Made by a program: the position numbers and the translations under genes. From positions 1-46,326 of the forward strand of contig JAFGGD010000004.1 of assembly GCA_016930695.1 (NCBI GenBank): DNA of 46,326 bases, read 5' to 3'. This DNA is from Candidatus Eisenbacteria bacterium. GTDB lineage: Bacteria > Orphanbacterota > Orphanbacteria > Orphanbacterales > Orphanbacteraceae. The notes under the pieces were generated by a model. It had not been told where the DNA came from, searched no databases, and saw nothing but the letters and a program-made list of their open reading frames with translations. Shown here piece by piece: positions 2,860 to 31,190 of this stretch (position 1 is the first letter of the stretch; each line of letters starts with the position of its first letter).

Positions 2860-5800
2860 ATGAGCAAGGGGAGAGCGAGCCGCCGCGAGGAGACGCCGCC
2901 GCCCGATTGGAAGCCGACGCAGGCGGTGGACAATCCGGTCATCAACGATCCCTACGGCGAACCGACCAAGCACTGGCTCTATAAGGAGGGCGTCCCGAGC
3001 CTGATGGACGGGCGGCGGGAGGCGAGCTACTGGTTCAAGACGAAGAGGACCGGCGCGAAGGAGCAGGATCTCTTCGCCGAGGAGGAGAGGGACAGCCTCC
3101 CGTTGGTGAACGCGCTCCGCGGGGACGTGAAGCGGTGGCGTGAATCGGGTTACCGCGGCGCCTCGCGGGTGACCAAGGAACTCCTCGAATGGTGGATGGG
3201 GGAGGATCGCCCGAGGCGCCTCTTCTTCTGCCAGAGAGAGTCGGCGGAGACACTCATCTACCTGCTCGAGCTGGCTCTTCCCGGGCGGCTGCACGCCACC
3301 GGTTTCAAGAACTTCGAGGTGGGCGCCGGGGTCGTGGATCAGCTCCGTCGCGGCGAACCACCGGATCTCCCCTCGCTGGTCGGCGATCACCCGCCGCGTC
3401 TCATCGATCCCCCCTCCGACGCGGATCTGCTCCCGCTCCTGCGGCTCGGCTGCAAGATGGCGACCGGGAGCGGCAAGACGATCATCATGGGGATGCTGAT
3501 CGCCTGGGCGTTCTGCAACCGGGGGAGGAATCCGGCGTCGGCGCACTACCCGAGCGGGGTGCTGGTCTGCGCGCCGAACCTCACGGTGAGGAAGAGGCTG
3601 CAGGTACTCCGCCCGGAGGATCCGGACAACTACTACGACGCCTTCGATCTGGTGCCGCCCAAGTACCGCGAATACCTGAACGCGGGGAAGGTGCTCATCA
3701 CCAACTGGCACGTCTTCGCGCCGAAGAGCGAGCACGTGGAAGGGGGGAAGAGCTACGCGGTGGTGAACAAGGGGGAGGAGACCCCCGAGGCGTTCACCAA
3801 GGACCGGCTCGGCGATCTCGTGAGCCGTCTGCCGATCCTGGTGCTGAACGATGAAGGGCACCACTGCTGGCGGGGGCGGCCGCTCAGCAAGAAGGAGGAG
3901 AAGGAGGCGGTCGAGGGGCTGGACCGGGAGAAGAAGAAGGAGTTGTCGGAGGAGGCGGACACGGCGCGCGTCTGGCTCGCCGGACTCGACCGGATCAACA
4001 ACAGCGGGCTGGCCGGCCGGAACGGCGGAGGCCCGGCCCCGGCGATTCTGGGGTGCGTCGATCTCTCGGCGACCCCATTTTACCTCTCCACGAGCGGCTA
4101 TCCGGAGGGGAGCCCCTTCCCGTGGCTGGTGAGCGATTTCGGCTTGGTGGACGCGATCGAGTGCGGCATCGTCAAGGTGCCGAGGCTGCCGGTCCGTGAC
4201 GACGCGGGGACGAAGGACGACGCGGGGCGGCCCGACCCCAGGTACTTCCGCCTCTGGCATAACATCACCCAAAAGGATCTGAAGGCGGGAGACTACATCC
4301 GGCGGGGACAGCCCAAGCCGGAGGCGATCTACAAGTACGCCGAGGGGGCGCTGGCGACGCTCGCCGCGCAGTGGAAGAAACACTTCGAAAAGGCCCGGGA
4401 GGACGCGGACGGGCAACCCTTCGTTCCCCCCGCGATGATCGTGGTCTGCGACAACACCGATCTGGCGGAGGTTTTCTTCCGGAAGATCAGCGGGGAGCAG
4501 GAGGAGGAAACGGCGAACGAGCAGGGGAAGACGATCCAGGTCAAGAAATACCAGGCGAGCGCCATCCTGCCCGAGCTGGGGAACACCGAAAAGGAACAGC
4601 ACACCATACGGATCGACTCGGATCTGCTCAAGAAGATCGAGACGGAGGAGGGGGAGAGCAAGGACGAGGCAGCCCTCCGTCTCAGGGAGATCATCGACAC
4701 GGTCGGGAAGCGAGGGGGGGCAGGGGAGCAGGTACGGTGCATCGTGTCGGTTTCGATGCTCACCGAGGGGTGGGACGCAAACAACGTGACCCACGTGCTC
4801 GGCGTGCGGGCCTTCGGGAGCCAGCTCCTCTGCGAACAGGTCGTCGGGCGCGGGCTCCGGAGGATGAGTTATACGCCCGACCCGGAGACCGGGCTGCTGC
4901 CGCCGGAGTATGTCGACGTCTACGGCATTCCCTTCTCGCTGATTCCGTTCAAGTCGGTGACGCCGAGCAATCCACCCGTCCCGAGGACCTATCACGACAT
5001 CTACGCGCTGCCCGATCGGGCGGCGTTCGAGATCCGTATGCCGAACGTGGAGAGCTACGTGTACGCCCTGCGGGACTCGGGGATCCGGTGCGACGTGGAC
5101 GCGATGGAGCCCTTGATCGTGGATCAGGAGCCGGGCGAGGTGTGGCTCGCGCCGACGCGGGGGATCCGGGACGACGAAGGTGAGAGGGCGGACGCGGGGG
5201 ATTTCGTCCGGCAGACGAGGGACGAGTACTACGATTCCGTGCGTCCCCAGCAGCTGATCTTCCGTCTCGCCCAACTCATCCTGGACGATCTCCTCAGGGG
5301 CGCCGAGGCGGACGAGTCGGAGCGGGGAAAGATCAAGCTGCTCGCGCGGCACCAGCTCTTCCCGGAAATCGTCGCGATCGTGGAGGAGTACATCCGCAAG
5401 AAGGTGACCTTCCGCCCCGGCACGGACGAGAGGGAACTGGGCCTCGAACGGTACAGCCGGATGCTACGAGAGAGAGTGCGGGACAACATCCTGCCGGCCG
5501 TCGCGAGCGAGGACCGGAAGCTCCTCCCGGTGTTGAACTCCTTCGAGCAGTACACGACGACGGCGAATGTCAACTCGAAGACGACGCGGCCGGTCCGGCG
5601 GCTCGTGAAAAGCCACCTGAACGCGGCGGTGATCTTCAGCGATTTAGAGCGCCGGGCGATCGAGGTCATGGAGGAACTCGACTGCGTCGAGTGTTTCACT
5701 CCCAACGACCGACAGATCGGATTGATCGTTCCGTACGAGTACGGCGAAAACGCGCACAACTACGAGCCGGACTTCCTCGTGCGATTGAAGAACGGCGTGA

Positions 5801-6504
5801 TGGTGATGCTGGAGATCAAGGGGGGAGGAGGGCTCATCCACGCGGAAGACCAAGTCAAGGCGAAGAACGCCGCCGCGCGGAAATGGACCGCCGCGGTTAA
5901 TAACCTGGGGAAATACGGGCAATGGGATTTCGAGGTCTGCGAGGATCCGAACAAACTGTGGGCTATCCTGCGGAAGCATTGTCCGGAGGCGGGGGAGAAC
6001 CGGCCCTTCCGATTCGTCGAGCCGAATCGCGAAACCGCTTGGAGGGATTGCGTTCCGCTCACGACCTTGCAGGCGGCGGCCGGCCGTTTCGGGGAGGAGC
6101 AGCTTTCCTTCGATCGCTTCGACGAGTGGGCGGGAGAGTGGATTGTCTGGGACGGGGCGCCCAGATTCTCGGAGGGCATGTTCGTTGCGCGGGTGTACGG
6201 GAAGTCGATGGAACCGATGATCCCGGACGGCGCGTATTGTCTATTCAAGTCGCCGTCCGCCGGGACGAGGGTGGGGAAGGTCGTTCTCGTCTGGCATTCC
6301 GGCGTGTCCGATCCCCATACCGGCGGCCAGTACACCGTGAAGATCTATGAAAGCGAAAAGCGGGGCGCCGAAGAGGGGGAATGGGAGCACACACGGGTGA
6401 TTCTGAGGCCGAAGAACCCGGACTTCGAGCCGATCATCCTCGAGCCGGAGGAAGAGAACGAGGTGCGGGTCGTGGCCGAGTTCGTGACCGTTGTGGGGAG
6501 TTAG
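2860..6504 (+). CDS. Type III Res-like helicase-nuclease fused to a LexA/UmuD-like S24 module
   Basis: A 1214-aa protein. The superfamily 2 helicase core shows Walker A MATGSGKT (200-207), DEGH box (331-334), SATPF (403-407), TEGWD (635-639) and QVVGRGLRR (660-668). A PD-(D/E)xK nuclease follows: P970-D971 and E985-x-K987 in YEPDFLV...MLEIKG. These fit an ATP-dependent restriction subunit working with the upstream methylase. The last ~150 residues are an S24 peptidase-like domain: A1074-G1075 in LQAAAGRFGEEQ resembles the LexA/UmuD cleavage site, S1116 lies in GKSMEPMIPDG, and K1161 in YTVKIY fits the general-base lysine. Spacing from scissile bond to serine (41) is close to LexA and UmuD (35-36); serine to lysine (45) is longer than their 37. 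Standard Res subunits end with the nuclease domain, so this is a fusion. Its stop is 27 bases from the end of the convergent glycosylase gene. Confidence 0.88.
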   Translation: MSKGRASRREETPPPDWKPTQAVDNPVINDPYGEPTKHWLYKEGVPSLMDGRREASYWFKTKRTGAKEQDLFAEEERDSLPLVNALRGDVKRWRESGYRGASRVTKELLEWWMGEDRPRRLFFCQRESAETLIYLLELALPGRLHATGFKNFEVGAGVVDQLRRGEPPDLPSLVGDHPPRLIDPPSDADLLPLLRLGCKMATGSGKTIIMGMLIAWAFCNRGRNPASAHYPSGVLVCAPNLTVRKRLQVLRPEDPDNYYDAFDLVPPKYREYLNAGKVLITNWHVFAPKSEHVEGGKSYAVVNKGEETPEAFTKDRLGDLVSRLPILVLNDEGHHCWRGRPLSKKEEKEAVEGLDREKKKELSEEADTARVWLAGLDRINNSGLAGRNGGGPAPAILGCVDLSATPFYLSTSGYPEGSPFPWLVSDFGLVDAIECGIVKVPRLPVRDDAGTKDDAGRPDPRYFRLWHNITQKDLKAGDYIRRGQPKPEAIYKYAEGALATLAAQWKKHFEKAREDADGQPFVPPAMIVVCDNTDLAEVFFRKISGEQEEETANEQGKTIQVKKYQASAILPELGNTEKEQHTIRIDSDLLKKIETEEGESKDEAALRLREIIDTVGKRGGAGEQVRCIVSVSMLTEGWDANNVTHVLGVRAFGSQLLCEQVVGRGLRRMSYTPDPETGLLPPEYVDVYGIPFSLIPFKSVTPSNPPVPRTYHDIYALPDRAAFEIRMPNVESYVYALRDSGIRCDVDAMEPLIVDQEPGEVWLAPTRGIRDDEGERADAGDFVRQTRDEYYDSVRPQQLIFRLAQLILDDLLRGAEADESERGKIKLLARHQLFPEIVAIVEEYIRKKVTFRPGTDERELGLERYSRMLRERVRDNILPAVASEDRKLLPVLNSFEQYTTTANVNSKTTRPVRRLVKSHLNAAVIFSDLERRAIEVMEELDCVECFTPNDRQIGLIVPYEYGENAHNYEPDFLVRLKNGVMVMLEIKGGGGLIHAEDQVKAKNAAARKWTAAVNNLGKYGQWDFEVCEDPNKLWAILRKHCPEAGENRPFRFVEPNRETAWRDCVPLTTLQAAAGRFGEEQLSFDRFDEWAGEWIVWDGAPRFSEGMFVARVYGKSMEPMIPDGAYCLFKSPSAGTRVGKVVLVWHSGVSDPHTGGQYTVKIYESEKRGAEEGEWEHTRVILRPKNPDFEPIILEPEEENEVRVVAEFVTVVGS

Positions 6505-8042: not shown

Positions 8043-9215
8043 CTACCCAACTCCCTTCGCCTTCACGATCCGTACGATCAACCCCTCGCAGCCGATGCCG
8101 AGGACGTCGGCGCGGATGGGATCGACGTCGGCGCGGGCGAGCATTTGGTCGTGGGCGGCGGGATTGCGATAACGGCGGAGGTCGTTCACCTCGCTCGGGA
8201 GGCGTTCGAGGAGCCAGACGGCGTGGCGGGGGAGGGCCGCGCGGACCGCGTCCTTGAAGATCGTGCTGTTCTTCAGAAGATGCTGGATCGATCCGATCGT
8301 TTCGTGACGGTCGTGGGCGGCGAGGTCGATCTCGGGGCGCTTGTCCGACGTGATGATCCTCTTCGCCGCCGGCGCGTCCGCCAGTTTCCGCGCGATCGGC
8401 GGGAACAGAAGGGCGTGGAGTTCCGTTTCCACCGCCTTGGCGTATTCCACCACCACCGGCGAGAAATCGAAGCGCGGATCCTCCCGGCGGGCGCGGTAGA
8501 CCGCCTCGCCCGCCGACAGGAAGCGGCGCGTCTCCGGCTCCATCCCGTGCCAGATTTCCTTCCCGAAGAGGTTTTCCCGCAATTCCTTGGCGAGCCGGCT
8601 CGACTCGCCCCGGTGTTCGGCGTCCGCTCTCGCCCAGATGCGCCCGCCCGTTACTTCCTCCCTCCCGGCGAACCAGGTGCGCGGACGCTTTTGCCGGACG
8701 ATGAGCGGCACGTCCACCATACCGCCGTAGATGGAGACCGGCTTGTCGTCGTATCGGGTGTTGAGAAGCCCTCCCATCTCGCGGCACGCCTCGGTGGTGT
8801 CGTGCGCGACGATGCAGCGGATGTCGCGCAGCTTCATCCAGCAGTCGACCGGCCAGGAGGCTTCGCGATAATAGGACGGCAGATGGTCTTTCTCCGATTC
8901 CATCCCGCGCAAATTGTCGCAGACGATTCCGGCCAGCCATCCGACGTAGAGAGACTGATAATCGGTGACGTAGAGATGGGTCTCCACACCGGCGGCGATC
9001 TGCTCATTCAACGCGAGGATCTGTTCCATGTGATCGAGAGGGGAGGGGCGCCGGGGCGACCGTACTTTCGCCCACCAGACGTAGACGTCCTCTTCCTTCG
9101 CCCCGTTTTGCAGGGCGCGTTCCCCCCAGTCGAGGAGAATGGTGATGTGCTGGTCGAGCGCGTCCGCGCAGTAGTAGGGATTCCAGACGGTGAGTAGGTG
9201 GTTCGCTTCGGACAT
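8043..9215 (-). CDS. Uncharacterised defence-associated protein with C-terminal HEPN-like motif
   Basis: A 390-aa soluble protein with no signal peptide or membrane segment. Its first ~200 residues (MSEANHLLTVWNPYYCADAL..., with DVYVWWAKVRSP and VTDYQSLYVGWLAGI) belong to no family I can name with certainty. The C-terminal part is helical and ends with LRRYRNPAAHDQ. R350-N-P-A-A-H355 fits the HEPN R-x4-H ribonuclease motif, and VVEYAKAVETELHALLF (about 285-300) fits the preceding HEPN helix. The start was set at ATG 9215; 29 further upstream residues in frame look non-coding. It is the first gene of the minus-strand operon with the two glycosylase-like genes. An RNase effector or a sensor for the glycosylases is an inference. 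Confidence 0.7.
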   Translation of the reverse strand: MSEANHLLTVWNPYYCADALDQHITILLDWGERALQNGAKEEDVYVWWAKVRSPRRPSPLDHMEQILALNEQIAAGVETHLYVTDYQSLYVGWLAGIVCDNLRGMESEKDHLPSYYREASWPVDCWMKLRDIRCIVAHDTTEACREMGGLLNTRYDDKPVSIYGGMVDVPLIVRQKRPRTWFAGREEVTGGRIWARADAEHRGESSRLAKELRENLFGKEIWHGMEPETRRFLSAGEAVYRARREDPRFDFSPVVVEYAKAVETELHALLFPPIARKLADAPAAKRIITSDKRPEIDLAAHDRHETIGSIQHLLKNSTIFKDAVRAALPRHAVWLLERLPSEVNDLRRYRNPAAHDQMLARADVDPIRADVLGIGCEGLIVRIVKAKGVG

Positions 9216-9330
9216 GGCTCTTTCCGGTGTCGATGTTTCGCGGATTGTAGCAGGCGGAGAAGAAAAAAAGAAGAGTCTCGCGCGGGTTCGGGCATTAGGC
9301 AAACAGGGGCGCTCACCACTGCAATAACAG

Positions 9331-9350
9331 GTGACCGTCCCTATTTGATT
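9331..9350 (+). repeat. Short dispersed repeat, copy 1
   Basis: GTGACCGTCCCTATTTGATT. The core CCGTCCCTATTT recurs with two changes at 9635-9646 and exactly at 18826-18837. It resembles the GTCCCTATTT-type repetitive extragenic motifs seen in many bacterial genomes next to transposase-like RAYT genes. No such gene is present here. Confidence 0.5.
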
Positions 9351-9473
9351 TTATCGGACCGTCTGTTCCGTTCTCGAATCGTTTGCCTCGCGGTCCGGAC
9401 CGTCTCCGTAGAGGATGCAAACGGAGAGGAGGACCGCGAGCAGGACGAGACCGAGGATCTTCCGGGCGTTCAT
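9351..9473 (-). CDS. Possible 40-aa single-pass membrane peptide
   Basis: A short frame starting MNARKILGLVLLAVLLSVC, with one hydrophobic segment (about residues 5-20) and a polar acidic tail. ATG 9473 has a GAGG-type ribosome site upstream. It lies between two copies of a dispersed repeat, with no recognisable homology. It could equally be a chance frame in a spacer. Confidence 0.3.
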   Translation of the reverse strand: MNARKILGLVLLAVLLSVCILYGDGPDREANDSRTEQTVR

Positions 9474-9630
9474 CTCGCACCTCGCAGCGCATGGGAAACC
9501 GCAGGACGATTCCGATCCTGCGACCGCGCCGTGGAGGATGTCAACTATTAAGGAAATGCCGGAATGAGACGCCGGGTGCCGCGGAACCGTTGTCGGTATC
9601 CGGTGTCTTGTTTTCACTCGATCCGAATGG

Positions 9631-9650
9631 GTGACTATCCCTATTTATTC
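9631..9650 (+). repeat. Short dispersed repeat, copy 2
   Basis: GTGACTATCCCTATTTATTC, matching the copy at 9331 except for two substitutions and one missing base. The two copies are exactly 300 bases apart in the same orientation. Confidence 0.45.
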
Positions 9651-9730
9651 CGTCGTGGTATTGTTTTCATCCGGCGCAGGCGTGAATCTCTCGGACAAAC
9701 GAGAACTTCCCCGGATATAGAGGACCTGAA

Positions 9731-11647
9731 ATGCATGGAGCGACTTTGGCGCGCACGAGCCGCGCCCGGATTCCGTTCGTCGCGGCGCTTTGTCTCGCCG
9801 CGGCCGTGATCGTCCCGAACGCCGCCGCATCGGACGGAGGTGCGGGCGCGGCGCCGAACCCCGCCGAAGGGGCCGCCGAGTGGGACACCACCTTCGTCGC
9901 CGACCCGATCGTGGTGACCGCCACGCGCGTCGAGACGGCGAGGCGCAAGGTACCCGGCTCGGTGTCGGTGATCGAGGGGGAGGAACTCCGCGCCACCGGA
10001 GCGACGTCGGTTCTGGACGCGATCGCGTCCTCGTCTCCCGGGCTCTACGTCACGCAAAGGAACGTCGCCGGCTTCGGCCTCGGGCCGGGCGCGGCGGGGC
10101 AGATCGCCATGCGCGGGATCGGCGGCGAGGCCCCCAACAGCCAGGTGCTCGTCCTCGTCGACGGGCGGCCGGACTACGTCGGCCTCTTCGGGCACCCGGT
10201 GCCGGACGCCTACGCGCTCGGCGAGGTGGAGCGCGTAGAGGTGTTGCGCGGGCCGGCGTCGGCGGTGTACGGACAGAACGCGATGGGGGGGGTGATCCAC
10301 ATCCTCACGCGGCGGCAGGGCGCGCCCGGGCTTCGTTTCCCCTTCCGCGCCGAGTTCGGTCCCTGGGGGACTGTGGACGCCAGCGCCACCGCGGCCGGCA
10401 TGCTGCACAACGGCCTCGACTGGCGGATGACGATCGGCCGCACACAAACCGACGGCCACCGCTCCGACGCGCCGGACGACTACGAAAGGACGCAGGCGTC
10501 CGGGTCGATCGGCTGGCGGCGCGGGCCGTGGGATTTCCGCATGCAGGGGGCGATGGTCCCCATCGAAGGGAAGGATCCGGGGCCGGAGGGGGGCGCGCCC
10601 GGCCTCGAGATCGACATCACCCGCTACAACGGCTCCCTCTCGGCGACCTATCATGAAGGGGCGACGACGGCGCGGGTGCTCCCCTATGTGAACTGGGGGA
10701 GGCACGAGTTCAGCGACGGCTGGGATTCCTACGATCGCGTGATCGGCGTGACCGCCTTCGCGAGCCGCGCCCTCGGGCGTGGATACGTGGCGACCGCCGG
10801 GTTCGATTTCTCGCGCGCCGGCGGCGAGGCGGAGACGCGGACCGAGACGGGCGTCACCGACTGGGGCGCCTATCACATCGTCGAAACGGCGCCGTCGCTC
10901 ACGTTGCAGGCGCCGGTGACGAGCCGGATCACGCTGGCCGGCACGGCGCGGGCGCACCACCACACCACCTACGGCTGGATCTTCGTGCCCGAGGGGGGCG
11001 TGGCGGTGGAAGCGCTGCCGGTGCTGACGCTGCGCGCGTCCGCCTCGCGCGGCTTCCGCTCGCCGACGATCCGCGACCTCTATCTCCTCCCGCCGTCGGA
11101 CGAGGATCTGGAGCCGGAGCGCACGGTGAACGTCGAGTTCGGCGCGGCGTGGGAGATGACGCGCCGCGTCGCGACCGAGGTCTCTCTCTGGCGGATGACC
11201 GGCGACAACATGATCCTCTTCACCGCGCCGCCGCCCGCCTACGTGAACAGCGGAGAGTTCACCCATCAAGGGATCGAGTGGGAGTTGCGCTGGGCGCACC
11301 CGCTCTTTCGCGGCCGCCTCTTCGCCGCCTTCCAGGACCTGGAGGACGAGACGATCGGCAAGCCGGAGCAGATGCTCGGGCTCACCGTTTCGTCGCGCCG
11401 CCACGGTTTCCGGGTGAGCGGCGAGGCGAGGCGCGTCGACCGTCTCTACGGGGCGAACGGCCGGAAGGACGAACTCCCCGGCTACACCTTACTGAATCTC
11501 ACCCTCGCCCGTTCGATCGGCGCCGGCGTGGAGTTGCAGGTCGCCGGCCGGAACCTGCTGGACGAGGATTACGAGACGATCACCGGGTATCCGATGCCGG
11601 GCGCCCACGCCATCTTCGCGATCGCGGCGGAGCTCGGAGGGGAGTAG
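9731..11647 (+). CDS. TonB-dependent outer-membrane receptor
   Basis: A 638-aa receptor that would bring a scarce nutrient (siderophore, cobalamin or similar) across the outer membrane using TonB energy. A signal peptide covers about residues 1-33 (VAALCLAAAVIVPNAAA). A TonB-box-like segment, DPIVVTATR, is at 58-66. The plug runs to about 185 and has the usual signatures IAMRGIGG, VLVLVDGRP, VERVEVLRGPASAVYGQNAMGGVI. The rest is an aromatic-rich beta barrel ending with the GYPMPG-A-H-AIF motif common near the end of these receptors. The substrate cannot be told from sequence. No riboswitch or Fur-like box was recognised upstream, and it stands alone without transporter genes. A weak ribosome site, GAGGA, precedes ATG 9731. 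Confidence 0.93.
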   Translation: MHGATLARTSRARIPFVAALCLAAAVIVPNAAASDGGAGAAPNPAEGAAEWDTTFVADPIVVTATRVETARRKVPGSVSVIEGEELRATGATSVLDAIASSSPGLYVTQRNVAGFGLGPGAAGQIAMRGIGGEAPNSQVLVLVDGRPDYVGLFGHPVPDAYALGEVERVEVLRGPASAVYGQNAMGGVIHILTRRQGAPGLRFPFRAEFGPWGTVDASATAAGMLHNGLDWRMTIGRTQTDGHRSDAPDDYERTQASGSIGWRRGPWDFRMQGAMVPIEGKDPGPEGGAPGLEIDITRYNGSLSATYHEGATTARVLPYVNWGRHEFSDGWDSYDRVIGVTAFASRALGRGYVATAGFDFSRAGGEAETRTETGVTDWGAYHIVETAPSLTLQAPVTSRITLAGTARAHHHTTYGWIFVPEGGVAVEALPVLTLRASASRGFRSPTIRDLYLLPPSDEDLEPERTVNVEFGAAWEMTRRVATEVSLWRMTGDNMILFTAPPPAYVNSGEFTHQGIEWELRWAHPLFRGRLFAAFQDLEDETIGKPEQMLGLTVSSRRHGFRVSGEARRVDRLYGANGRKDELPGYTLLNLTLARSIGAGVELQVAGRNLLDEDYETITGYPMPGAHAIFAIAAELGGE

Positions 11648-11952
11648 GGGGGATCGGCGCGCGCCCGGAACCGCATACCTTTTCCTCCGCTTCGCCCGAG
11701 AAAAATGAATCCGGTTCCGAGGGCCCTTTCATCGCATCCCCTCTGTGGAAGGGGCGCGACAGGAGAGAATCGATACCTGTTGTGAATTTTCACACCACCT
11801 GCTAGTCTGACCGCGTCGGGCGGGGACCGTCCCGGATATATTTTTTCAACGCGTTGATCTAAAATGGGTTACAAAAAGCAAGCCCGCTCGTTCCCGTGGA
11901 GACGCGCGGGCACGGCCCTTGCGATGGACTCTCTCCGGGCTAGGAACCGGAG
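11648..11952. other. Spacer before the Omp85-NtrYX operon
   Basis: About 305 bases with no supported gene. It contains a CRP-like inverted repeat (11781-11794), a GGGACCGTCCC inverted repeat next to an AT-rich ATATATTTTTT stretch (11823-11847), and an AT-richer segment up to 11880 where the operon promoter probably lies. I cannot assign -35 and -10 boxes with confidence. Confidence 0.45.
11781..11794. promoter_or_regulatory. Inverted repeat resembling a CRP/FNR-family site
   Basis: TGTGAATTTTCACA is a perfect 6-bp inverted repeat with a 2-base centre. The half-sites TGTGA/TCACA match CRP-type sites, but the spacing is 4 bases rather than 6. It is about 160 bases upstream of the Omp85 start. 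No regulator is known to bind it. Confidence 0.3.
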
Positions 11953-13365
11953 GTGGAGAGGGTGTTCTCTTTGATACGAAACAGGCAAATGGCGGGAAGA
12001 CGGACGCGCGGGCTGCTTCTTCTTTACCTCGTCTGCGGCTCCGTTCTCGCCGCGGCGACGGGCGCATTCGCCGCCGCCGAGGAGTCGGGCGACGGGCTGA
12101 TCGTCGAGGCGATCGAAGTCACCGGGAACGACCGCACCAAGGAGTCGACGATCTGGGCCGCTCTCGGATTGGAACCGGGTGAGAGTGTGCCGCCCGATTC
12201 GCTCCCCCGAGCCATCGAGAACCTCCGCGAGAGCGAGATCTTCGCCGATGTGGATGTCTCCTCGCGGCGCGGCTCGGAGAGGGGACGTATCGTCCTCATC
12301 GTCGACGCGAAAGAGAAGCCGGTGGAGTGGCGCTTCGGCGCAGGCTATCAGGACCTCTCCGGTTGGTACTTGATCCCCGTAGAGTTTCGCGCCGACAACC
12401 GTCTCGGCAACGGCGAAAGAGTGCGCGCGCAGGTCGTCATCGGCAATCGCATGAGCGGAGCGACCTTTCGATATGAAGAACCTCGCTTCGGCGATCGCAA
12501 ATCCTACTATGGCCTGTACGGGTCCGCCATCGGCTACGGGCGGATCTACTTTTTAAACGGCGTCGAGTACCAGCACTCCGTCGCCCGCGGCGGTTTCGAG
12601 CTGTACGGCGGCCGCGAGATCCGCTCGAGGCTCACCCTCGAGGCGGGCGCCGGCTTCGAGGCGGCGGAGGTGGAGTCCGTCGCCGAGGCGTGGAACGATC
12701 GGGAGACGCGGGGGATCGAGACGGGGGATGAACTCGCCTATGAGGACCTTCCCCCGGAGATCCGCGCCGACGTGGGGGAGCGGGTAAGGGGAACGGCCCG
12801 CCTCGATCTGATCTGGGACAACCGGAGCGAGCGGCTCGTCGCCGCGACCCCGGCCGCCGGCGTTTGGGGACGGCTCCGCGTCGGCGGCGTCTTCGATCAC
12901 GACAAGGGATTCCCCTATTCCACCGCCGATGTCCGCGCCTATCGCTCCGCGGGGGGGCTCTCCTTCGGCGCGCGGCTCCGCGCGGGCGTCACCACGCCGC
13001 GCGCCCCCTGGTTCGACCGCTTCTACGTGGGCGGCCTCTTCACGGTCCGCGGTTTCCCCACGCAGTCCCTCAGCGTCACCGAAGGGGAAACCCGCTTCTG
13101 GAGCGCCTCTCTCGAGATGCGCGGGGCGCTGGTCGGCGACCGGGCGAACCCGCGTCTCGCCGGACTGCTCTTCATCGACGCCGGGGACGGTTGGATCGTC
13201 GACGGAGAACCGACCTGGGGGGACGTGGCGATCGGTGCCGGGTACGGCCTTCGCTGCCGCCTCCCCTGGGTGGGATGGATCGGCTTGGACGTGGGCGTCC
13301 CTCTCACCGATACGCCGGCGAAAGAAAGTTATCACATCAATGGTTCTTTCGGGTGGACCTTCTGA
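11953..13365 (+). CDS. Single-POTRA BamA/TamA-family (Omp85) outer-membrane protein
   Basis: A 470-aa protein from GTG 11953 (GGAGG directly before it) or 458 aa from ATG 11989, which begins right at the signal peptide (RTRGLLLLYLVCGSVLAAAT...AFA). One POTRA-like domain at about 48-115 (IVEAIEVTGNDRTKESTIWAALGLEPG...ADVDV) is followed by a ~350-residue beta barrel. The Omp85 signature VRGF is at 365-368, a late GLLFIDAGDGW follows, and the C-terminal residue is phenylalanine (GWTF), the usual barrel end. Housekeeping BamA has five POTRAs and about 800 residues, so this is a short accessory Omp85 protein for outer-membrane insertion or secretion. Its stop TGA overlaps the next ATG (TGATG), starting a five-gene operon with a two-component system. 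Confidence 0.85.
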   Translation: MERVFSLIRNRQMAGRRTRGLLLLYLVCGSVLAAATGAFAAAEESGDGLIVEAIEVTGNDRTKESTIWAALGLEPGESVPPDSLPRAIENLRESEIFADVDVSSRRGSERGRIVLIVDAKEKPVEWRFGAGYQDLSGWYLIPVEFRADNRLGNGERVRAQVVIGNRMSGATFRYEEPRFGDRKSYYGLYGSAIGYGRIYFLNGVEYQHSVARGGFELYGGREIRSRLTLEAGAGFEAAEVESVAEAWNDRETRGIETGDELAYEDLPPEIRADVGERVRGTARLDLIWDNRSERLVAATPAAGVWGRLRVGGVFDHDKGFPYSTADVRAYRSAGGLSFGARLRAGVTTPRAPWFDRFYVGGLFTVRGFPTQSLSVTEGETRFWSASLEMRGALVGDRANPRLAGLLFIDAGDGWIVDGEPTWGDVAIGAGYGLRCRLPWVGWIGLDVGVPLTDTPAKESYHINGSFGWTF

Positions 13366-24205: not shown

Positions 24206-24778
24206 TTGAAGGGGATCATCAATCAAGCGATCCAGGAGTATGTCGTCCATACCCGGGGCGACGAAGCCTGGTGGAAGATCAGAGAGGAAACGGGCATCCG
24301 GGAGGTCAGCTTCAACCCTTCCCGGGATTACCCCGACGAGTGGACCGCGCGGCTCTTGGATCATCTCAGCGCGGATTCCGGCCGGATCAAAGAAGACCTG
24401 CTACGGGACATCGGCCGTTTCCTGGTTCCGCACACGTTGAAGCGGGTCTACCCCACCTACATCGCCCTCGCCGGAAACGACGTCTTTTCCTTCCTGGCTC
24501 GGGTGGGTCTAATCCATCGCAAAGTGGTGAGCTGCATCCCGAACGCCAAGCCTCCCTCCATCGAAGTTCTGGAAAGGGGGGAGGATCGTATGGTCGTGCG
24601 CTATCGATCCGAACGCCGCCTCTTCGCCCTCTTCCAAGGTTTACTGGAAGGCGTAGGCGATCTTTTCGATCGACCGATCACCGTTCGTGAGATCGAAACG
24701 AACGGCGACATCGGAGAAAACGAATGCAGGTTCGAAGTGAGCCTCGTGAGACAACCGAGTCCGGCGCGTTCCGTGTGA
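24206..24778 (+). CDS. H-NOX haem-based nitric oxide sensor
   Basis: A 190-aa haem NO/O2-binding protein. It begins MKGIINQAIQEYVV, the usual H-NOX N-terminus, so TTG 24206 is taken as start. The proximal haem ligand is H104 in FLARVGLIHRKVVSCIPNAKPP, with the conserved PP after it. The haem-propionate motif Y-x-S-x-R is Y133-S135-R137 in VRYRSERRLFALFQGLLEG. No membrane segment: it is cytoplasmic. In known systems NO binding breaks the Fe-His bond and changes the activity of a partner kinase. Here the kinase gene overlaps the H-NOX end by 55 bases, so the two are made together. It opens a five-gene signalling operon. Confidence 0.9.
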   Translation: MKGIINQAIQEYVVHTRGDEAWWKIREETGIREVSFNPSRDYPDEWTARLLDHLSADSGRIKEDLLRDIGRFLVPHTLKRVYPTYIALAGNDVFSFLARVGLIHRKVVSCIPNAKPPSIEVLERGEDRMVVRYRSERRLFALFQGLLEGVGDLFDRPITVREIETNGDIGENECRFEVSLVRQPSPARSV

Positions 24779-26790
24779 CGGTCCGGCCCGAGCGGCTGGA
24801 GTTTCCATTCGCGGTTGAGGCGGACGGAAACGGGATCGTTCTCGACGTTTCCGCCGCCGTCCTCAGCCGGGTCACTCGCCCCGCCGGGCGCCGGATCGAC
24901 GATCTGTTGCGCGGTCCGGCGACGGGAGGCTGGGCGGCGTTTTTCGCCGGAGATCCGGATCGTTCCGTGGAGGCTGCGCTCATCGCCGACGGCGGGGACG
25001 TACCGCTCGCCGGGTTCTGGGTCCCATCGGAGCGAGGGCGCCTTTTTCTCGGCCGTCCCCTCGTTCGCGGCCGGGATGACCTCCGCCATTTCGAACTGGA
25101 GGAACTGGAAGGAACGGCGTCGATCCTGGACGTTTTTACGACAATGGACGAGGCGGAGAGCCTGAGCCGCGGAACGGAGAGGGCGCTCAGCGCGCTACAG
25201 GTCGAGTCCCGCCGGCTTCGCGGTCTCGTGCGCAACACCGGCGGGTTTCTCATCGTCACCAATCGGTCGAACAATATCGTGCTGGTCGGTTCGGGACTGT
25301 TGGAAGCTCTCGGAAAAGAGAAACAGGAGGTGCTCTCCAAGCCCCTGTTCGACGTCATCGACTCGCCGGAGTTCCGGGAGTGGGCGAATAGCCGGGGCGG
25401 ATCGGGCGAATACGCGTCGGATGGGGATGAACGATTTGAGTGCACTTCCGCGCTCCCCGGCGCCGGTGAGCGCATGGTGGACTGGATCATCACCGCCGTA
25501 CGTGATCGGGAAGGCGCCCGGACGGGTTTCGTCGTTTCCGGCGCCGATGTGACCGAACGGATGAACCGGGTCGCCACGGTGGAGCGAGCACGCGACGAGC
25601 TGAACATGATTCTGGACACGCTTCCCTTCGGCGTGATCCTGATCGACGAGACACGGAAGATTCAATGGATCAATCTGGTCGGCATGGAGATGGCGGGAGA
25701 ACTCCGGCGCGAAGAGATAATCGGCAGATCTTGCTCGAAATGGTGTTGCCATGCCGAGAAGGGCTGTTGTCCCGTTTATGATCAGGGAAAATATTTCAGC
25801 AACAAAGAGATGTGGTTTTACCCCCTGGAGGGGAATGCTTTCCCGGTGCTGAAAAGCGTCGCTCCGGTCCGGATCGGCGGCAAGGAGTACCTGCTCGAGG
25901 TTTTCATCGACATCGCGGACCGGAAAAGCATGGAGTCCGAGCTGGAGCAGGCGCGGCGTCTGGAGAGCATCGGCCAACTCGCGGCGGGGATCGCTCACGA
26001 GATCAACACGCCCACCCAGTTTCTGAGCGACAACATCATCTTTCTCTCCCAAGTCGTCAAGGCGATGCTGGACCATCTGGAGGACTACGCCGATCTGGTA
26101 CGGCGGTTGGAGGGGCCGGACTGGTCGCCGGAAGATTTGGAGAAAAACCGCCGCTCCCTGAAAAATTTCGACATAGCGTTTTACCGGGAAGAGATCCCGG
26201 AGGCGTTGAATCACTCCCGGGACGGCATCCGCCGTATCAGCGAGATCGTGCAGGCCATGAAGGAGTTCTCCCACCCCGGCCAAAAGCAGAAAGTGCCTAC
26301 CGATATCGAGCACGCCGTCCGGACGACGGCGACGGTGGCGAGAAACCGTTGGAAGTACGTAGCCGATCTGGAAATCGATGTGGGCGAGGGGCTTGATGAA
26401 GTGCCTTGCAATCCCGGCGAGTTCAATCAGGTGATCCTGAACCTGATCGTGAACGCTGCGGACGCCATCGCCTCGAAAATCGAGGGGAGTACCGACGAAA
26501 AGGGAATGATCCGCGTCAAAGCGAGACGGGACGGCGATTGGGTGGAGATACGGATCGGCGATACGGGCGGCGGCGTTCCTCCGGAGATCCTGGGGAGGAT
26601 CTTCGAGCCGTTTTTCACGACCAAGGAAGTGGGGAAGGGAACCGGTCAGGGCCTGGCGATCGCGCGAAGCGTCATCGTGGACAAGCACGACGGCGTCATC
26701 CGATGCGAGAGCGAGCCGGGGGTCGGAACCACATTCATCGTGCGGTTGCCCATCCGCGAGAAGAAAACGACGGAATCCCCCATCGTATAG
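24724..26790 (+). CDS. Soluble PAS histidine kinase, H-NOX partner
   Basis: A 688-aa kinase without membrane segments. Residues ~25-120 ([21 protein letters not shown]) resemble the H-NOX-associated domain. A helical linker is followed by two PAS domains (~170-285 and ~288-405). The second contains an unusual cysteine cluster C337, C341, C342, C348, C349 in [18 protein letters not shown]. The phosphoacceptor is H425 in [19 protein letters not shown], and the ATPase domain has [19 protein letters not shown] and [15 protein letters not shown] should gate this kinase; the cysteines could add a redox, zinc or iron-sulfur input (inference). The kinase probably signals to the three receiver proteins encoded next. 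The long overlap with the H-NOX gene implies coupled translation. Confidence 0.9.
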
Positions 26791-26805
26791 GGGCAGGAGA
26801 CGGAC

Positions 26806-27915
26806 ATGGAGAAATCGGTGCTCTTCGTCGACGACGATCCGCACATTCTCTCCGCCCTTCGGAGGATGCTGATGGCCTCCGGGTGCGTCTGGGATCTCAC
26901 CTTCGCCGGTGGCGGCCGGGAGGCGCTTGAGATTCTGGAAGGACGACCCCACGACGTGATCGTTTCGGACATGCGGATGCCGGGGATGACCGGCGCCGAA
27001 TTGCTCGAGAAGGTGCGATCGCTTTATCCGGAGACGGTCCGCATCGTCCTCTCGGGCCACACCGAGCTGGAGACGGCGATGCGTTTGGTTCCCATCGCCC
27101 ACAACTATATCGCCAAACCGTGCGACAGCGAGACGATCATCCGGCTGGTGCAGCGCGCCTGTGACATGCACGACCGGCTGAACAACGAAGAGCTGAAACA
27201 GAGGATCGGAAAGATCGGCGGCTTGCCCAACCTGTCCACCACCTATCACGAACTCGTTCGCCTACTGAGCGATCCCGACGCGGCGCTGGACGAGGTCGTG
27301 AAAATCATCGAGCGGGACGTGGGGATGGTCGCCAATATTCTTCATTTGGTGAACACGGCGTTCTATGCGCCCAAGCAGAGGATCACCAAAATCAATCAGG
27401 CCGTCTCCTACATCGGGATCACCGTGTTGAAGAGCCTCTTCCTGTCCGCCGAGGCCTTCCGGGCCTTCGAGGGCAAGATCCCCGCCGAGTTCTCGCTCGA
27501 GGAATTCCAGAACCACGGGATGGAGGTGGGGAGCGAGGCGGCGGAGATGATGGGAACGCAGCGGGAGCGGGACGACGCGTTTCTCGCGGGGATGCTGCAC
27601 GACGTGGGCAAGCTCGTTCTGCTGACGGAGCACCCCGATCAGTATCAGGAGGTGTTGCGCCGCGCGGAATCGGGCCAAAGCTCCTGCGTCGAAACGGAGA
27701 GGGAGATCTGGCAGGTCACCCACGCCGACGTGGGCGGATACATTTTAGGACTCTGGTTTTTACCCTACACGATCGTCGAGGCGGTTACCTACCATCACAA
27801 TCCGCCGGCCCCCATGGCGGAAGGGCTCGACGTCACCACCGCCGTCTATCGGGCTAACGAACGAGTGAACAGCCGAAAGGATCGCGCGGAAGAGTACACG
27901 GGAGCGAAGGAGTGA
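26806..27915 (+). CDS. Response regulator with HDOD output domain
   Basis: A 369-aa protein: receiver domain ~1-125 with phospho-acceptor D55 (VIVSDMRMPGMTG) and switch/lysine KPCDSE, then an HDOD domain ~140-330 (LPNLSTTYHELVRLLSDPDAALDEVVKIIERDVGMVANILHLVNTAFY; later MLHDVGKLVLL). HDOD domains are HD-fold relatives, generally without phosphohydrolase activity, that act in signalling complexes. The C-terminal part has a further histidine-rich stretch (TYHHNPP). A GGAG ribosome site lies before ATG 26806, 15 bases after the kinase stop. Confidence 0.9.
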   Translation: MEKSVLFVDDDPHILSALRRMLMASGCVWDLTFAGGGREALEILEGRPHDVIVSDMRMPGMTGAELLEKVRSLYPETVRIVLSGHTELETAMRLVPIAHNYIAKPCDSETIIRLVQRACDMHDRLNNEELKQRIGKIGGLPNLSTTYHELVRLLSDPDAALDEVVKIIERDVGMVANILHLVNTAFYAPKQRITKINQAVSYIGITVLKSLFLSAEAFRAFEGKIPAEFSLEEFQNHGMEVGSEAAEMMGTQRERDDAFLAGMLHDVGKLVLLTEHPDQYQEVLRRAESGQSSCVETEREIWQVTHADVGGYILGLWFLPYTIVEAVTYHHNPPAPMAEGLDVTTAVYRANERVNSRKDRAEEYTGAKE

Positions 27916-27993
27916 TGTCGACCGAAGGAATGCCCGCACGCCGGGCGTGGAGAAGAACGCAGGCAGTGAATTCGCGGGAGGGGGGGGTGCGCC

Positions 27994-29211
27994 GTGAATT
28001 GGAGTAAACCGCCGATTCTGTGCGTCGACGACGAGGAACAGGTGTTGAAAGCCCTCTCGCGGCTTCTCCAACTCCGGTTCTCGGTGCATACAGCGACGGG
28101 CGGCGAGGAGGGGCTTCGTATCCTCGGCGAGAAGGGTCCCTTCGCCGTGGTGGTGTCGGACATGCGGATGCCCAACATGAACGGCATCCAGTTTTTGGAA
28201 AAAGTCCGCCAGGCACACCCGGACACGGTCCGCATCCTGCTCACCGGACAGGCGGATCTGAAGAGCACCATCTCGGCGATCAACCAGACCCAGATCTTTC
28301 GTTTCCTGAGCAAGCCCTGCGAGCACGAGATATTGGCCCGCGCGTTGGACGAGGGAGTCCGTCAGTATCGCCTCATCGTGGCGGAGAGGGAACTTCTCCA
28401 ACACACGCTCCGCGGGAGCATCAAGCTCCTCACCGACATCCTCTCCCTGGTGCACCCCGAGGCGTTCGGTAAAGCGGTGCGTTTCCGCAAGTACATCGTC
28501 GACTTCATCGGAGCGCTCGACCTGGAGGACAGCTGGGCGATCGAGATCGCTCCCATGCTCTCCCAGCTCGGATGCTTCACGCTTCACCCCGAGCTGGTGA
28601 AGAAGCTTTACCACTATGAGGATCTCGACGCCGAAGATCTGGAACAGGTCGGGCAGCTCTTCTCCGTGACCGATCAGATGCTCGCCAACATCCCCCGCCT
28701 CGAACCGGTGCGCGAGATCCTGGCCTATCAGACGAGCCGTTTTGACGGGAGCGACATCCCTCATAGCCGTGTGAAGGGCAAGGAAATTCCGACCGGTGCG
28801 CGCATCCTGAAGATCGTGACCGATTTCGACGACCTTCTCGCCCGCAAACGGCTCTCCGTTCCGGCGGCGTTGGACACCCTGCGGGGGCGGGAGGGCGCCT
28901 ACGATCCCGAGCTGCTCGGCCTCTTCTGCGACATCCACGGCCGCCCGGAGAAGGAACAGGATGTACGCGAACTCCGCGTGCAGGAGCTGACGCCCGGCAT
29001 GGTGATCGACGAGGACGTCCGCGCGCAAACCGGTACGTTGCTCATCGTGAAGGGGCAGGAGGTGACCGAGAGCGTGCTCAAGCGGATATACAGCTTCCAC
29101 AACCGCATCGGGATCCGGGAGCCGATCCGCACAATTCTCAAAACGACCGACGAAGCCGGCGGCGAGGCGTCCGGAAAACAGCTCTCATCGTCTTTGACCG
29201 GAGGCGTTTGA
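27994..29211 (+). CDS. Response regulator with degenerate HD-GYP domain
   Basis: A 405-aa protein starting at GTG 27994 after a GGGAGGGGG stretch. Receiver domain ~1-125 with D56 (VVVSDMRMPNMNG), then an HD-GYP-like domain. Where active enzymes have H-D-I-G-K, this has S190-Q-L-G-C; the GYP loop reads S253-D-I-P in RFDGSDIPHSRVKGKEIPTGARIL. Metal ligands are therefore lost and cyclic-di-GMP hydrolysis is not expected. In Shewanella, HnoD is also a degenerate HD-GYP receiver protein in the H-NOX pathway, where it inhibits a phosphodiesterase; the parallel is close, but no phosphodiesterase gene is in this window. A C-terminal ~70-residue segment (ELTPGMVIDEDVRAQTGTLLI) is an extra small domain. 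Confidence 0.88.
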   Translation: MNWSKPPILCVDDEEQVLKALSRLLQLRFSVHTATGGEEGLRILGEKGPFAVVVSDMRMPNMNGIQFLEKVRQAHPDTVRILLTGQADLKSTISAINQTQIFRFLSKPCEHEILARALDEGVRQYRLIVAERELLQHTLRGSIKLLTDILSLVHPEAFGKAVRFRKYIVDFIGALDLEDSWAIEIAPMLSQLGCFTLHPELVKKLYHYEDLDAEDLEQVGQLFSVTDQMLANIPRLEPVREILAYQTSRFDGSDIPHSRVKGKEIPTGARILKIVTDFDDLLARKRLSVPAALDTLRGREGAYDPELLGLFCDIHGRPEKEQDVRELRVQELTPGMVIDEDVRAQTGTLLIVKGQEVTESVLKRIYSFHNRIGIREPIRTILKTTDEAGGEASGKQLSSSLTGGV

Positions 29212-29212
29212 T

Positions 29213-29782
29213 ATGGCACATACCGTTTTGTTCGTGGACGACGATCCCCATCTCCTGAAGGGACTCCGCAGGAGCATGCGGGAGGAACCCTTCCGGGTTC
29301 TGTTGGCGAAAGACGGCGCCGCGGCCCTGGGAGTCCTGGACGAGCACGAAATCGACGTGCTGGTGACCGACCAAGAGATGCCCGGGCTGAAGGGGACGAT
29401 GCTCCTCGATCTGGTGCGGACGCGCTACCCGGACGTCATCCGGATCCTCCTGACCGGCAACGCGAACCTGGATGTGGCCCTTCAAGCGATTAATAAAGGG
29501 GAGGTTTTCCGTCTCTGCACCAAGCCGATCGACTCCCGGGAACTCGCCGCCGTCATCCGCTCCGCCCTGGAGCAGAAGGATTTGCTCGCCACGAGCCGCG
29601 ATCTCCTACACACCGTGCGGAAGCAGGCGACGGTCATGGAACGTCTCGAACGGGACAATCCGGGAATCACCAAAGTGGATCTGGATCAGGAAGGCCGCAT
29701 CGTCCTTTCCGACGATTCCCTGGCCGATCTCGCCATTTTCCTCGAAGACGCCAAGAGGGAGCTGGGGCGCACGAAGCCCTGA
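29213..29782 (+). CDS. Response regulator with short C-terminal tail
   Basis: A 189-aa protein: receiver domain ~1-125 with D53 (VLVTDQEMPGLKG) and conserved KPIDSRE, followed by a helical linker and a ~35-residue acidic tail (TKVDLDQEGRIVLSDDSLADLAIFLEDAKREL) of no known family. It starts one base after the preceding stop and closes the operon before a strong terminator. It could be a phosphate sink or a relay to an unlinked output. Confidence 0.85.
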   Translation: MAHTVLFVDDDPHLLKGLRRSMREEPFRVLLAKDGAAALGVLDEHEIDVLVTDQEMPGLKGTMLLDLVRTRYPDVIRILLTGNANLDVALQAINKGEVFRLCTKPIDSRELAAVIRSALEQKDLLATSRDLLHTVRKQATVMERLERDNPGITKVDLDQEGRIVLSDDSLADLAIFLEDAKRELGRTKP

Positions 29783-29813: not shown

Positions 29814-29840
29814 CGCCCGGACCGCTCGGTCCGGGCGTTT
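29814..29840 (+). terminator. Rho-independent terminator of the H-NOX operon
   Basis: CGCCCGGACCG (29814-29824) and CGGTCCGGGCG (29827-29837) form a perfect 11-bp stem, then TTTTCGT. Confidence 0.85.
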
Positions 29841-29867: not shown

Positions 29868-31034
29868 TCAGTGCCAGTTCACCAGAGGGAGCACCTTCCG
29901 CCACCCCTCGTTGTTCCCCGCGTAATTGATCGCGCCGATCTGAACGCCGTCGAGAACGGCGGCGATGTTGACGACGCCGATGGTGAGGCCCCGGCTGGTT
30001 CCCTCCATTCGCGTCACCGCGCCTGTGGCGAAACCGCGGAAGGAACTCTTGGTGTGCGTGTAGAGGCCGCCGATCGCGGCGCCCCGCACCCTCTCCGCGG
30101 CGATGAAGGAGCCGACGAAGGCGCCCCGCAGACTCCCGCCTCCCACGCCGGCCAGTCCGGCGCCGAACCCGCGGAAACGCTTCGCGCCGACCCCCGCGCC
30201 GCCGATCGCGATTCCCCGTATTCTCTCCGCGCCGAGGCCGATCCCGCCGAGCGCCAGCCCATGGATGTCCTGCGCGCCGACGCCCACGCCGCCGATCACG
30301 ATCCCCCGCACGCTCTCGGCGCCGACGCCGATCCCGCCGACGAAGAGACCGGCCATCCTCTCGCCCGCCATCCCCACTCCGCCGATTCCGATCCCGGTGA
30401 AATCCTCCTTGGCCAGGCCGATCGATCCGCAGGCGAACCCGCGCACCGACTGAGCCGCCGCACCGATTCCGCCGATCAGGATCCCCCGGACGTCCTCCGC
30501 CGCGATCCCCACGCCGCCGAAGGCGATTCCGTCCAGATCCTGAGCCGCGGCGCCGACGGTGCCGAAGAGGATCCCGTTTACGTCCTCGGCCGCGCAACCG
30601 ATCCCCCCGGCGATGATCCCGGTCGCGTCCTGCGTGGCGCACCCCAGACCGCCGATCAGCACTCCATTCACTTTCTCCGTCGCGCAACCGATCCCGCCGA
30701 TGCCGATCCCGTAGATGTCGCCGCCCGCCAGACCGCCTCCGCCGACGGCGATCCCCCTCATCCGTCCGAAGCAGGGGGCCGCCAGACCGGCCGCGATCCC
30801 ATCCATATGGAAACGGTTATTTTCCTCGGGGATCCAAAGCGTGACATTCACCCCCCGCACGCTCCGCACTCTCTCGTCCACGAGGTTGAACCGCAACCCG
30901 TTCCATTTTTTAGAGTTACCAAAAGAAATCCCCGTCCGGGCCGCCCCCAGGTCGAGGGATGCCGCGGTGACGGGCGCCGCGGCGGCGGCGAGGAGCAGAG
31001 CCGTGAGGGAGAGGGCGATGGGGGTACGCTTCAT
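29868..31034 (-). CDS. Surface repeat protein of 15-residue tandem repeats (LA_2272-like)
   Basis: A 388-aa exported protein. Signal peptide ~1-25 (ALSLTALLLAAAAAPVTAAS). After a short domain (ISFGNSKKWNGLRFNLVDERVRSVRGVNV), residues 77-301 are fifteen back-to-back 15-residue repeats of the form hxGIxhGGhGhxAED (for example VRGIVIGGVGVGAQD, IHGLALGGIGLGAER), followed by weaker units. The regular glycine and hydrophobic spacing predicts a beta-solenoid. Three consecutive units (3-5) carry cysteine at the same place (GCATEK, GCATQD, GCAAED), so the residues would stack. It resembles LA_2272-type surface repeat proteins, whose function is unknown. ATG 31034 is chosen because it starts the signal peptide; 17 in-frame residues upstream were dropped. 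Divergent from the DUF3857 genes. Confidence 0.8.
   Translation of the reverse strand: MKRTPIALSLTALLLAAAAAPVTAASLDLGAARTGISFGNSKKWNGLRFNLVDERVRSVRGVNVTLWIPEENNRFHMDGIAAGLAAPCFGRMRGIAVGGGGLAGGDIYGIGIGGIGCATEKVNGVLIGGLGCATQDATGIIAGGIGCAAEDVNGILFGTVGAAAQDLDGIAFGGVGIAAEDVRGILIGGIGAAAQSVRGFACGSIGLAKEDFTGIGIGGVGMAGERMAGLFVGGIGVGAESVRGIVIGGVGVGAQDIHGLALGGIGLGAERIRGIAIGGAGVGAKRFRGFGAGLAGVGGGSLRGAFVGSFIAAERVRGAAIGGLYTHTKSSFRGFATGAVTRMEGTSRGLTIGVVNIAAVLDGVQIGAINYAGNNEGWRKVLPLVNWH
30132..30806 (-). repeat. 45-bp coding tandem repeats (15 units)
   Basis: Fifteen in-frame 45-bp units encoding the 15-residue solenoid repeats. Units are diverged at DNA level but keep GGCGGGATCGG-like blocks in register, so they arose by duplication and have since drifted. 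Confidence 0.75.
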
Positions 31035-31190
31035 TCCGTGAAACCTCCTCTGCTTTCGGCGTCGAATCTCGTTACCGGCCAACATAATTCAGTACGCAGC
31101 AGGATCATCCGGGTTTCAGCGGCTCTCCTTCCGGTGTCCTCGTTCCGATTCCCGGCACCGGCACCGGAGTCCGCGCAAACTCGTGCATCG

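Follow-up and report, generated by a model that had tools for sequence, protein, structure and literature searches.

The window considered here, a stretch of 46,326 nucleotides from a Candidatus Eisenbacteria bacterium (GTDB phylum Orphanbacterota; assembly GCA_016930695.1, contig JAFGGD010000004.1), carries at positions 24206–29782 of its plus strand five genes that encode, in this order, an H-NOX protein, a PAS histidine kinase and three response regulators, namely a REC-HDOD protein, a REC-degenerate HD-GYP protein and a short REC protein. With somewhat better than even confidence, this operon can be regarded as a multi-output two-component system responding to nitric oxide (NO), in which an H-NOX and HNOBA sensor half has been joined to a kinase-and-receiver module native to the phylum. 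Such a joining would explain at once the clade in which the kinase core falls, the grouping of the H-NOX protein with those of another type of kinases and the occurrence of the module without H-NOX in related genomes. The H-NOX protein is related to the human NO receptor and seems to control the kinase together with the three response regulators. None of the individual parts is of a new type; their combination under an H-NOX sensor differs from what is found in relatives.

The five genes proposed by an earlier sequence-only reading of this DNA are all real, lie on the plus strand in the order that it gave and encode exactly the residues that it named (H104 and Y133-S135-R137 of the H-NOX protein, H425 of the kinase and D55, D56 and D53 of the successive receivers). 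The H-NOX protein P0001 (24206–24778) matches HNOB (PF07700) with 131.7 bits (cut-off 25.5; E-value 3.1e-38), and its TTG start at 24206 is consistent with its homologues, which start with M-K/H-G-I at the equivalent position. The soluble kinase P0002 (24724–26790) comprises an HNOBA-like domain, two PAS domains, a DHp domain and a HATPase (HATPase_c, 2e-26). The regulators P0003 (26806–27915; HDOD, 171.4 bits, cut-off 22.9, 2.1e-50) and P0004 (27994–29211; HD_5, 104.6 bits, 6.2e-30) each match Response_reg in addition, and P0005 (29213–29782; 76.2 bits) matches Response_reg alone and bears a PGI..V tail. With Pfam scores from 3e-38 (H-NOX) to 3e-21 (the weakest receiver), chance is ruled out as the source of the five family matches. 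As the start of the kinase gene (24724) overlaps the end of the H-NOX gene (24778) by 55 bases and as the gaps downstream of the kinase gene are 15, 78 and 1 bases, the five genes likely form a single transcription unit.

The H-NOX protein and the sensor half of the kinase

P0001 keeps the proximal heme histidine and the YxSxR motif; across 39 aligned H-NOX sequences, the Y, S and R are present in all 39 and the histidine in 36. According to the distal-tyrosine rule, a tyrosine is linked to O2 sensing by H-NOX proteins. Because no tyrosine occurs within the 20 residues that follow YxSxR in P0001, the rule suggests a sensor of NO rather than of O2. A cysteine is found in 28 of the 39 sequences at a column where P0001 has a phenylalanine, the last cysteine, present in 29 of them, is retained by P0001, and the protein lacks the C-M-H stretch seen in most relatives. 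The zinc site of the Shewanella oneidensis H-NOX is described as Cys139, Cys164, Cys172 and His161 (PMC7108781). If the Cys/His columns of the alignment are equated with those of this site, the zinc/redox switch would be gone and heme alone would sense in P0001.

In the tree of these sequences, P0001 groups with the H-NOX proteins of HNOBA-bearing hybrid kinases (support 97/90). The tree covers 39 of 40 loci and does not include L024, L089 and L090; the locus dropped, L072, has an H-NOX frame broken by a TAG (about 9623–10006, contig 1126 of genome G025), which may reflect a defective copy or an assembly error. The phage collection gave no match to H-NOX.

In the kinase, Pfam recognizes two PAS stretches and HATPase_c, with HisKA under its cut-off (20.9 bits). 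The phospho-acceptor H425 lies in HEINTPTQ, whose HEINT matches the H-E/D-x-x-T/N motif that is tied to phosphatase activity (PMC12570481). Over its first 168 residues, the kinase is similar to the N-termini of kinases that adjoin the H-NOX genes of L027, L028 and L029, the three closest H-NOX genes from a genome scan that yielded only 3 loci from 368 pattern matches and does not amount to a census. A profile of these four N-termini (A6), compared with the PDB, found the beta-1 subunit of soluble guanylate cyclase (sGC) as its three best matches (residues 204–375, E 0.0016, for two sequences; residues 204–385, E 0.012). The fold predicted from the A6 alignment (pLDDT 71.8, pTM 0.59) likewise ranks sGC chains first with Foldseek (E 2e-4 to 4e-4). 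With VIA-align, it is placed near the PAS domain of a Nostoc punctiforme kinase (Z 12.7, rmsd 2.4, 102 residues aligned) and residues 206–386 of sGC beta (Z 12.1, rmsd 5.5, 153 aligned), the best PAS chain that belongs to neither reaching Z 10.2. Profile and predicted fold thus point to sGC and identify an HNOBA/H-NOXA-like region with a coiled-coil end (residues 18–168, 24775–25227); the label is kept at HNOBA-like because the Pfam HNOBA family does not match this piece of P0002. Since sGC has this domain after its H-NOX domain, the HNOBA-like region is by analogy the likely docking site at which P0001 would act. This N-terminal region and the conserved PGI..V motif in the tail of the short receiver went unnoticed in the sequence-only reading. 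In L029, two adjacent kinase genes whose cores are almost identical (9883–11196 and 11309–13144), likely a recent duplication, lie just downstream of the H-NOX/hybrid-kinase pair.

Kinase core, receivers and their relatives in the phylum

The core of P0002 is 50% and 49% identical to those of kinases from two other genomes of the phylum (G002 and G004), 47% to that of a kinase on contig 8 of the same genome, and 47 and 43% to those of the H-NOX-associated kinases of two Myxococcota loci (L072 and L074), all others being at most 41% identical. In the kinase tree, computed without L075 where the motif search found no phospho-acceptor, the five cores named and that of P0002 form a clade (support 100/100) that stands apart from the HNOBA-bearing hybrid kinases. 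Since sensor half and core lie in different tree groups, the kinase looks chimeric.

Among the seven genomes of the phylum that were examined, H-NOX is found in this one only, and the pair of REC-HDOD and REC-degenerate HD-GYP genes is found in four, that is, without H-NOX in three of the six others (G002, G003 and G004). Full-length relatives of P0004 in these three genomes are 47% (G003), 44% (G002) and 40% (G004) identical to it by the search, or 41–48% by pairwise alignment, and a paralogue on contig 8 is 51% identical; the best matches in G001, G005 and G006 (E 7e-15 to 1e-14) are confined to the receiver. In G002, G003 and G004, the degenerate HD-GYP gene is preceded by a REC-HDOD gene (HDOD 42–48% identical to P0003), and in G003 it is followed by the gene of a tailed short receiver that is 52% identical to P0005. 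The kinases that adjoin the HDOD pair in G002 and G004 carry other sensors, the former beginning with REC and PAS and the latter having a Tll0287-like domain (50.3 bits, cut-off 24.1). Taken together, the kinase core and the receivers look native to the lineage and the H-NOX sensor looks swapped in, a reading drawn from seven phylum genomes and one long-branched H-NOX, with receiver relationships taken from pairwise identities. Within the genome itself, the receivers nearest to P0004 are the contig-8 paralogue, then the other two receivers of the operon (E 4.8e-20 and 8.5e-20; next 2.8e-15), as expected of receivers that share one kinase.

Two of these loci show further arrangements. In G004 (L130), the same-core kinase (3897–5963), whose Tll0287-like domain contains CVSCH, is followed by a short receiver, a REC-HDOD and a REC-degenerate HD-GYP protein. 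On contig 8 (L091, 8562–17507), an open reading frame for a kinase of 2157 amino acids with many PAS stretches and a GAF domain is followed by a degenerate and then an intact REC-HD-GYP gene, which places both forms of the regulator side by side.

The HDOD domain of P0003 retains H237, H265-D266, H306 and H330-H331. The same set is found in the three relatives of P0003 within the phylum, with HE for HH in G002, and the HDOD forms of Pseudoalteromonas, Vibrio and Salinivibrio have lost the HD. HDOD domains are described as lacking key residues and the HDOD regulator GsmR as inactive (PMC4114195), which counts against an activity of P0003. The idea that an HD-retaining HDOD domain is a rarity is weakened, since two other HDOD proteins, one in L129 (3238–4080) and L096, keep such residues too. 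The latter (8434–10614, contig 46 of this genome) fuses an intact-motif HD-GYP domain to HDOD in one protein, suggesting that both domain types cooperate.

In P0004, all the residues tested for an HD-GYP phosphodiesterase are replaced (SQ at 190–191 for HD, YQ at 245–246 for HH and DIP for GYP). Its best NCBIfam model is NosR (NF053512), with 264.3 bits, below the 400 required; this model is passed by relatives from Pseudoalteromonas, Vibrio and Burkholderia (520, 466 and 554 bits) and is not reached by those of G002 and contig 8 (214.5 and 268.8 bits). VC1087 of Vibrio cholerae, a REC-HD-GYP protein without an intact HD motif, is reported to be inactive (PMC4212101).

The conserved PGI..V tail of P0005 also occurs on the G003 receiver and on many other short receivers, and a model of it matches 43 of the 195 genomes of the phylum of genome G007 (46 places). 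In the 30 stretches that were read, each of about 3 kb only, the tail is always on a receiver, with a GGDEF gene nearby in five and an adjoining REC-HDOD gene in one. As the tail is so widespread and most of these stretches have no H-NOX/kinase pair, P0005 was rejected as an H-NOX-specific partner; the receivers of L140 and L141, the neighbourhoods of L072 and L074, do adjoin such a pair. Receivers with a similar cysteine-rich tail (...PICM.C.KIR...CPECLEKYYP...) were observed next to a FIST gene on contig 8 of this genome (L018) and next to H-NOX in L027 (4032–4625).

As for cyclic di-GMP (c-di-GMP), Pfam finds neither EAL nor GGDEF in the operon. The search of the whole genome that the sequence-only reading had advised found four GGDEF places, with an intact GG[DE]EF in sequences from three of them, and no match to EAL, a domain matched in 6 of 14 control genomes. 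HD_5 occurs at nine places in eight genes, five of which have HD, HH and GYP (L006, L008, L010, L011 and L013), and PilZ is matched three times. Because the genome has GGDEF genes and five HD-GYP genes with intact motifs despite the lack of an EAL match, c-di-GMP turnover is possible through the intact HD-GYP enzymes, which would be natural unlinked targets. The earlier statement that the operon has no active c-di-GMP enzyme thus holds for EAL and GGDEF and, judging from its lost motifs, for P0004, but is not secure for P0003, which keeps HD-type residues. The earlier reading of the output was right in part only. The genome also has two FIST (NosP-like) genes, with no kinase recognized by eye in their stretches of about 3.6 kb.

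H-NOX loci elsewhere, mode of action and competing readings

The HDOD pair was found without H-NOX in the phylum itself, and H-NOX together with HDOD and HD-GYP also in Pseudoalteromonas and Vibrio. In the phylum of G007, 30 H-NOX places (27 of 195 genomes; L027 is one of them) were read and none has HDOD or HD-GYP according to in-house hidden Markov models (HMMs), many of these stretches ending at contig ends (5.9–20 kb) and two of the places being weak. Among plasmids, 23 records have an H-NOX match, and two of the 10 loci read have HDOD nearby (L020 and L132). The Pseudoalteromonas xiamenensis locus carries REC-HDOD, H-NOX and kinase genes, a divergent degenerate REC-HD-GYP gene and hemH. 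Plasmid p319 of Vibrio coralliilyticus carries REC-HDOD, a lone REC, CheC, a kinase, REC-EAL, REC-HD-GYP and Hpt and, about 5 kb on, H-NOX and a kinase; the remaining Vibrio plasmid records with H-NOX look alike by their search matches. As these plasmid loci also have HDOD near H-NOX, the grouping of H-NOX, HDOD and HD-GYP is not unique to this genome. They share with the operon the proximity of H-NOX, kinase, REC-HDOD and REC-HD-GYP but differ from it by gene order and strands, by HDOD domains without HD residues and by short kinases without an HNOBA match (in-house HMM); furthermore, the V. coralliilyticus locus has an EAL regulator. In Pseudoalteromonas, hemH (ferrochelatase) adjoins the REC-HD-GYP gene on two plasmids (L020, 4279–5298; L026, 6353–7375), only one of which has H-NOX in the stretch. 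In the paper collection searched, no paper mentions both H-NOX and HDOD.

If a sensor half was indeed joined to a local module, the system would operate as follows: NO would bind the heme of P0001, P0001 would engage the HNOBA-like domain of P0002 in trans, the kinase or phosphatase activity at H425 would change, and phosphate would pass from H425 to D55, D56 and D53. The degenerate HD-GYP regulator would work by protein contact, most likely on an intact HD-GYP or GGDEF enzyme, with a net effect on c-di-GMP; the HDOD regulator would provide a second contact or possibly an enzymatic output, and the short receiver would be a phosphate sink or an adaptor. Gene order, domains, residues, HNOBA-like similarity, the module without H-NOX and the differing affinities of sensor half and core are legible in the DNA; the identity of the ligand as NO, the docking in trans, the direction of the effect, phosphotransfer to each of the three receivers and the targets are inferred.

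Several observations weigh against the joining. The P0001 branch is long (1.89) and its position inside the clade is unsure; Pfam finds no family for kinase residues 1–169 at an E-value of 10, HNOBA (PF07701) included, and gives only a weak match, under the cut-off, for HNOBA on the L028 kinase (E 0.036); and no kinase was recognized at the three-receiver locus of G003 up to the contig end. In addition, L072 and L074 carry H-NOX, a same-core kinase and a tailed short receiver with no HNOBA match (in-house HMM). This pairing may go back to an old combination of H-NOX, core and short receiver, HNOBA having been lost elsewhere; that L072 and L074 lost HNOBA is the chief rival to the joining of a sensor half. 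The same two loci, where no HDOD accompanies the triad, could also mean that the operon holds two systems, an H-NOX/kinase/short-receiver triad and an HDOD pair served by this and other kinases. This is unlikely, although tailed receivers are common and usually apart from HDOD and the 78-base gap precedes P0004: HDOD, degenerate HD-GYP and tailed receiver genes occur together without H-NOX in G003, and the kinases of G002 and G004 adjoin the HDOD pair.

The operon resembles, as had been stated, the Shewanella and Vibrio type, in which NO/H-NOX controls the kinase HnoK with a degenerate HD-GYP regulator (PMC6335343, PMC8846402); the inactive domain of HnoD is given as a diguanylate cyclase domain in one source (PMC8738867) and as an HD-GYP domain in another (PMC6335343), which is followed here. 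With the HnoX-HnoK-HnoB/C/D network of S. oneidensis and its Vibrio form, as these sources present it, the operon shares an H-NOX gene adjoining that of a soluble kinase, several receivers and a degenerate HD-GYP regulator. It differs by the absence of an EAL regulator (HnoB) and of a DNA-binding regulator among its three receivers, by HDOD and a short receiver in the operon and by the HNOBA-like domain of the kinase. It would further be expected of such a network that NO-bound H-NOX inhibits the kinase and that this one kinase phosphorylates all receivers. That the operon is an ordinary network of this kind, in which the EAL and DNA-binding regulators gave way to HDOD and the short receiver, as the sequence-only reading held, is quite improbable. 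The degenerate HD-GYP regulator common to the Shewanella network (PMC6335343) and the genome without an EAL match would fit such a replacement. However, other genomes of the phylum have HDOD beside degenerate HD-GYP and lack H-NOX, pairwise identities favour an arrival of the HDOD and short receiver genes with the phylum module rather than with H-NOX, and in V. coralliilyticus REC-HDOD and a lone receiver stand beside the EAL regulator, not instead of it.

A more speculative proposal, to be held as distinctly doubtful, sees in the REC-HDOD/REC-degenerate HD-GYP pair a two-protein output device that takes whichever sensor the lineage supplies (H-NOX/HNOBA here, a Tll0287-domain kinase in G004, a REC-PAS kinase in G002), HDOD, with its H...HD...H...HH residues intact, being a phosphorylation-gated metal phosphohydrolase subunit and the dead HD-GYP its regulatory subunit, as a split counterpart of the HD-GYP-HDOD protein L096. 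Finally, the long branch and the zinc-site Cys/His positions mostly absent from P0001 in our own alignment could point to a decaying or heme-free H-NOX remnant, with a kinase working through its PAS domains; this is very improbable, as P0001 keeps the proximal histidine and YxSxR, has an intact frame scoring 131.7 bits and is encoded by a gene overlapping that of a kinase with an HNOBA-like domain.

Other known systems and flanks of the operon

In Burkholderia, NosK phosphorylates the degenerate HD-GYP protein NosR (PMC12570481). The NosP-NosK-NosR system has in common with the operon an NO sensor acting in trans, a kinase and a REC-degenerate HD-GYP protein, but its sensor is a FIST protein and not H-NOX. 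In sGC beta-1, H-NOX is followed by an HNOBA-PAS domain and a coiled coil, as here, where they are split over two proteins and a histidine kinase stands instead of a cyclase. The hnox2-lpg2458-lpg2457 operon of Legionella encodes H-NOX, a kinase and a single-domain receiver and, as described in PMC11237717, has no HDOD or HD-GYP regulator. If the joining is true, gas sensing would have been rewired by exchanging the sensor half of the kinase, core and receivers staying in place, and a little-sampled phylum would be shown to have an sGC-like pair of H-NOX and HNOBA that is divided between two genes. The related systems, with the same outputs and different sensors, would form a natural set for probing the role of paired REC-HDOD and degenerate HD-GYP proteins.

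No sigma-70-like promoter was recognized in the scan that gave terminator-like sites, of which 11 were observed against 5.6 expected in shuffles. One of them, a candidate terminator by consensus match only, is a hairpin of 10 pairs at 29814–29837 on the plus strand (readable on the other strand too), with 9 G-C pairs and a modest T run. Convergent with the operon, an open reading frame of 405 amino acids with many short glycine-rich repeats lies on the minus strand of the window at 29868–31085.

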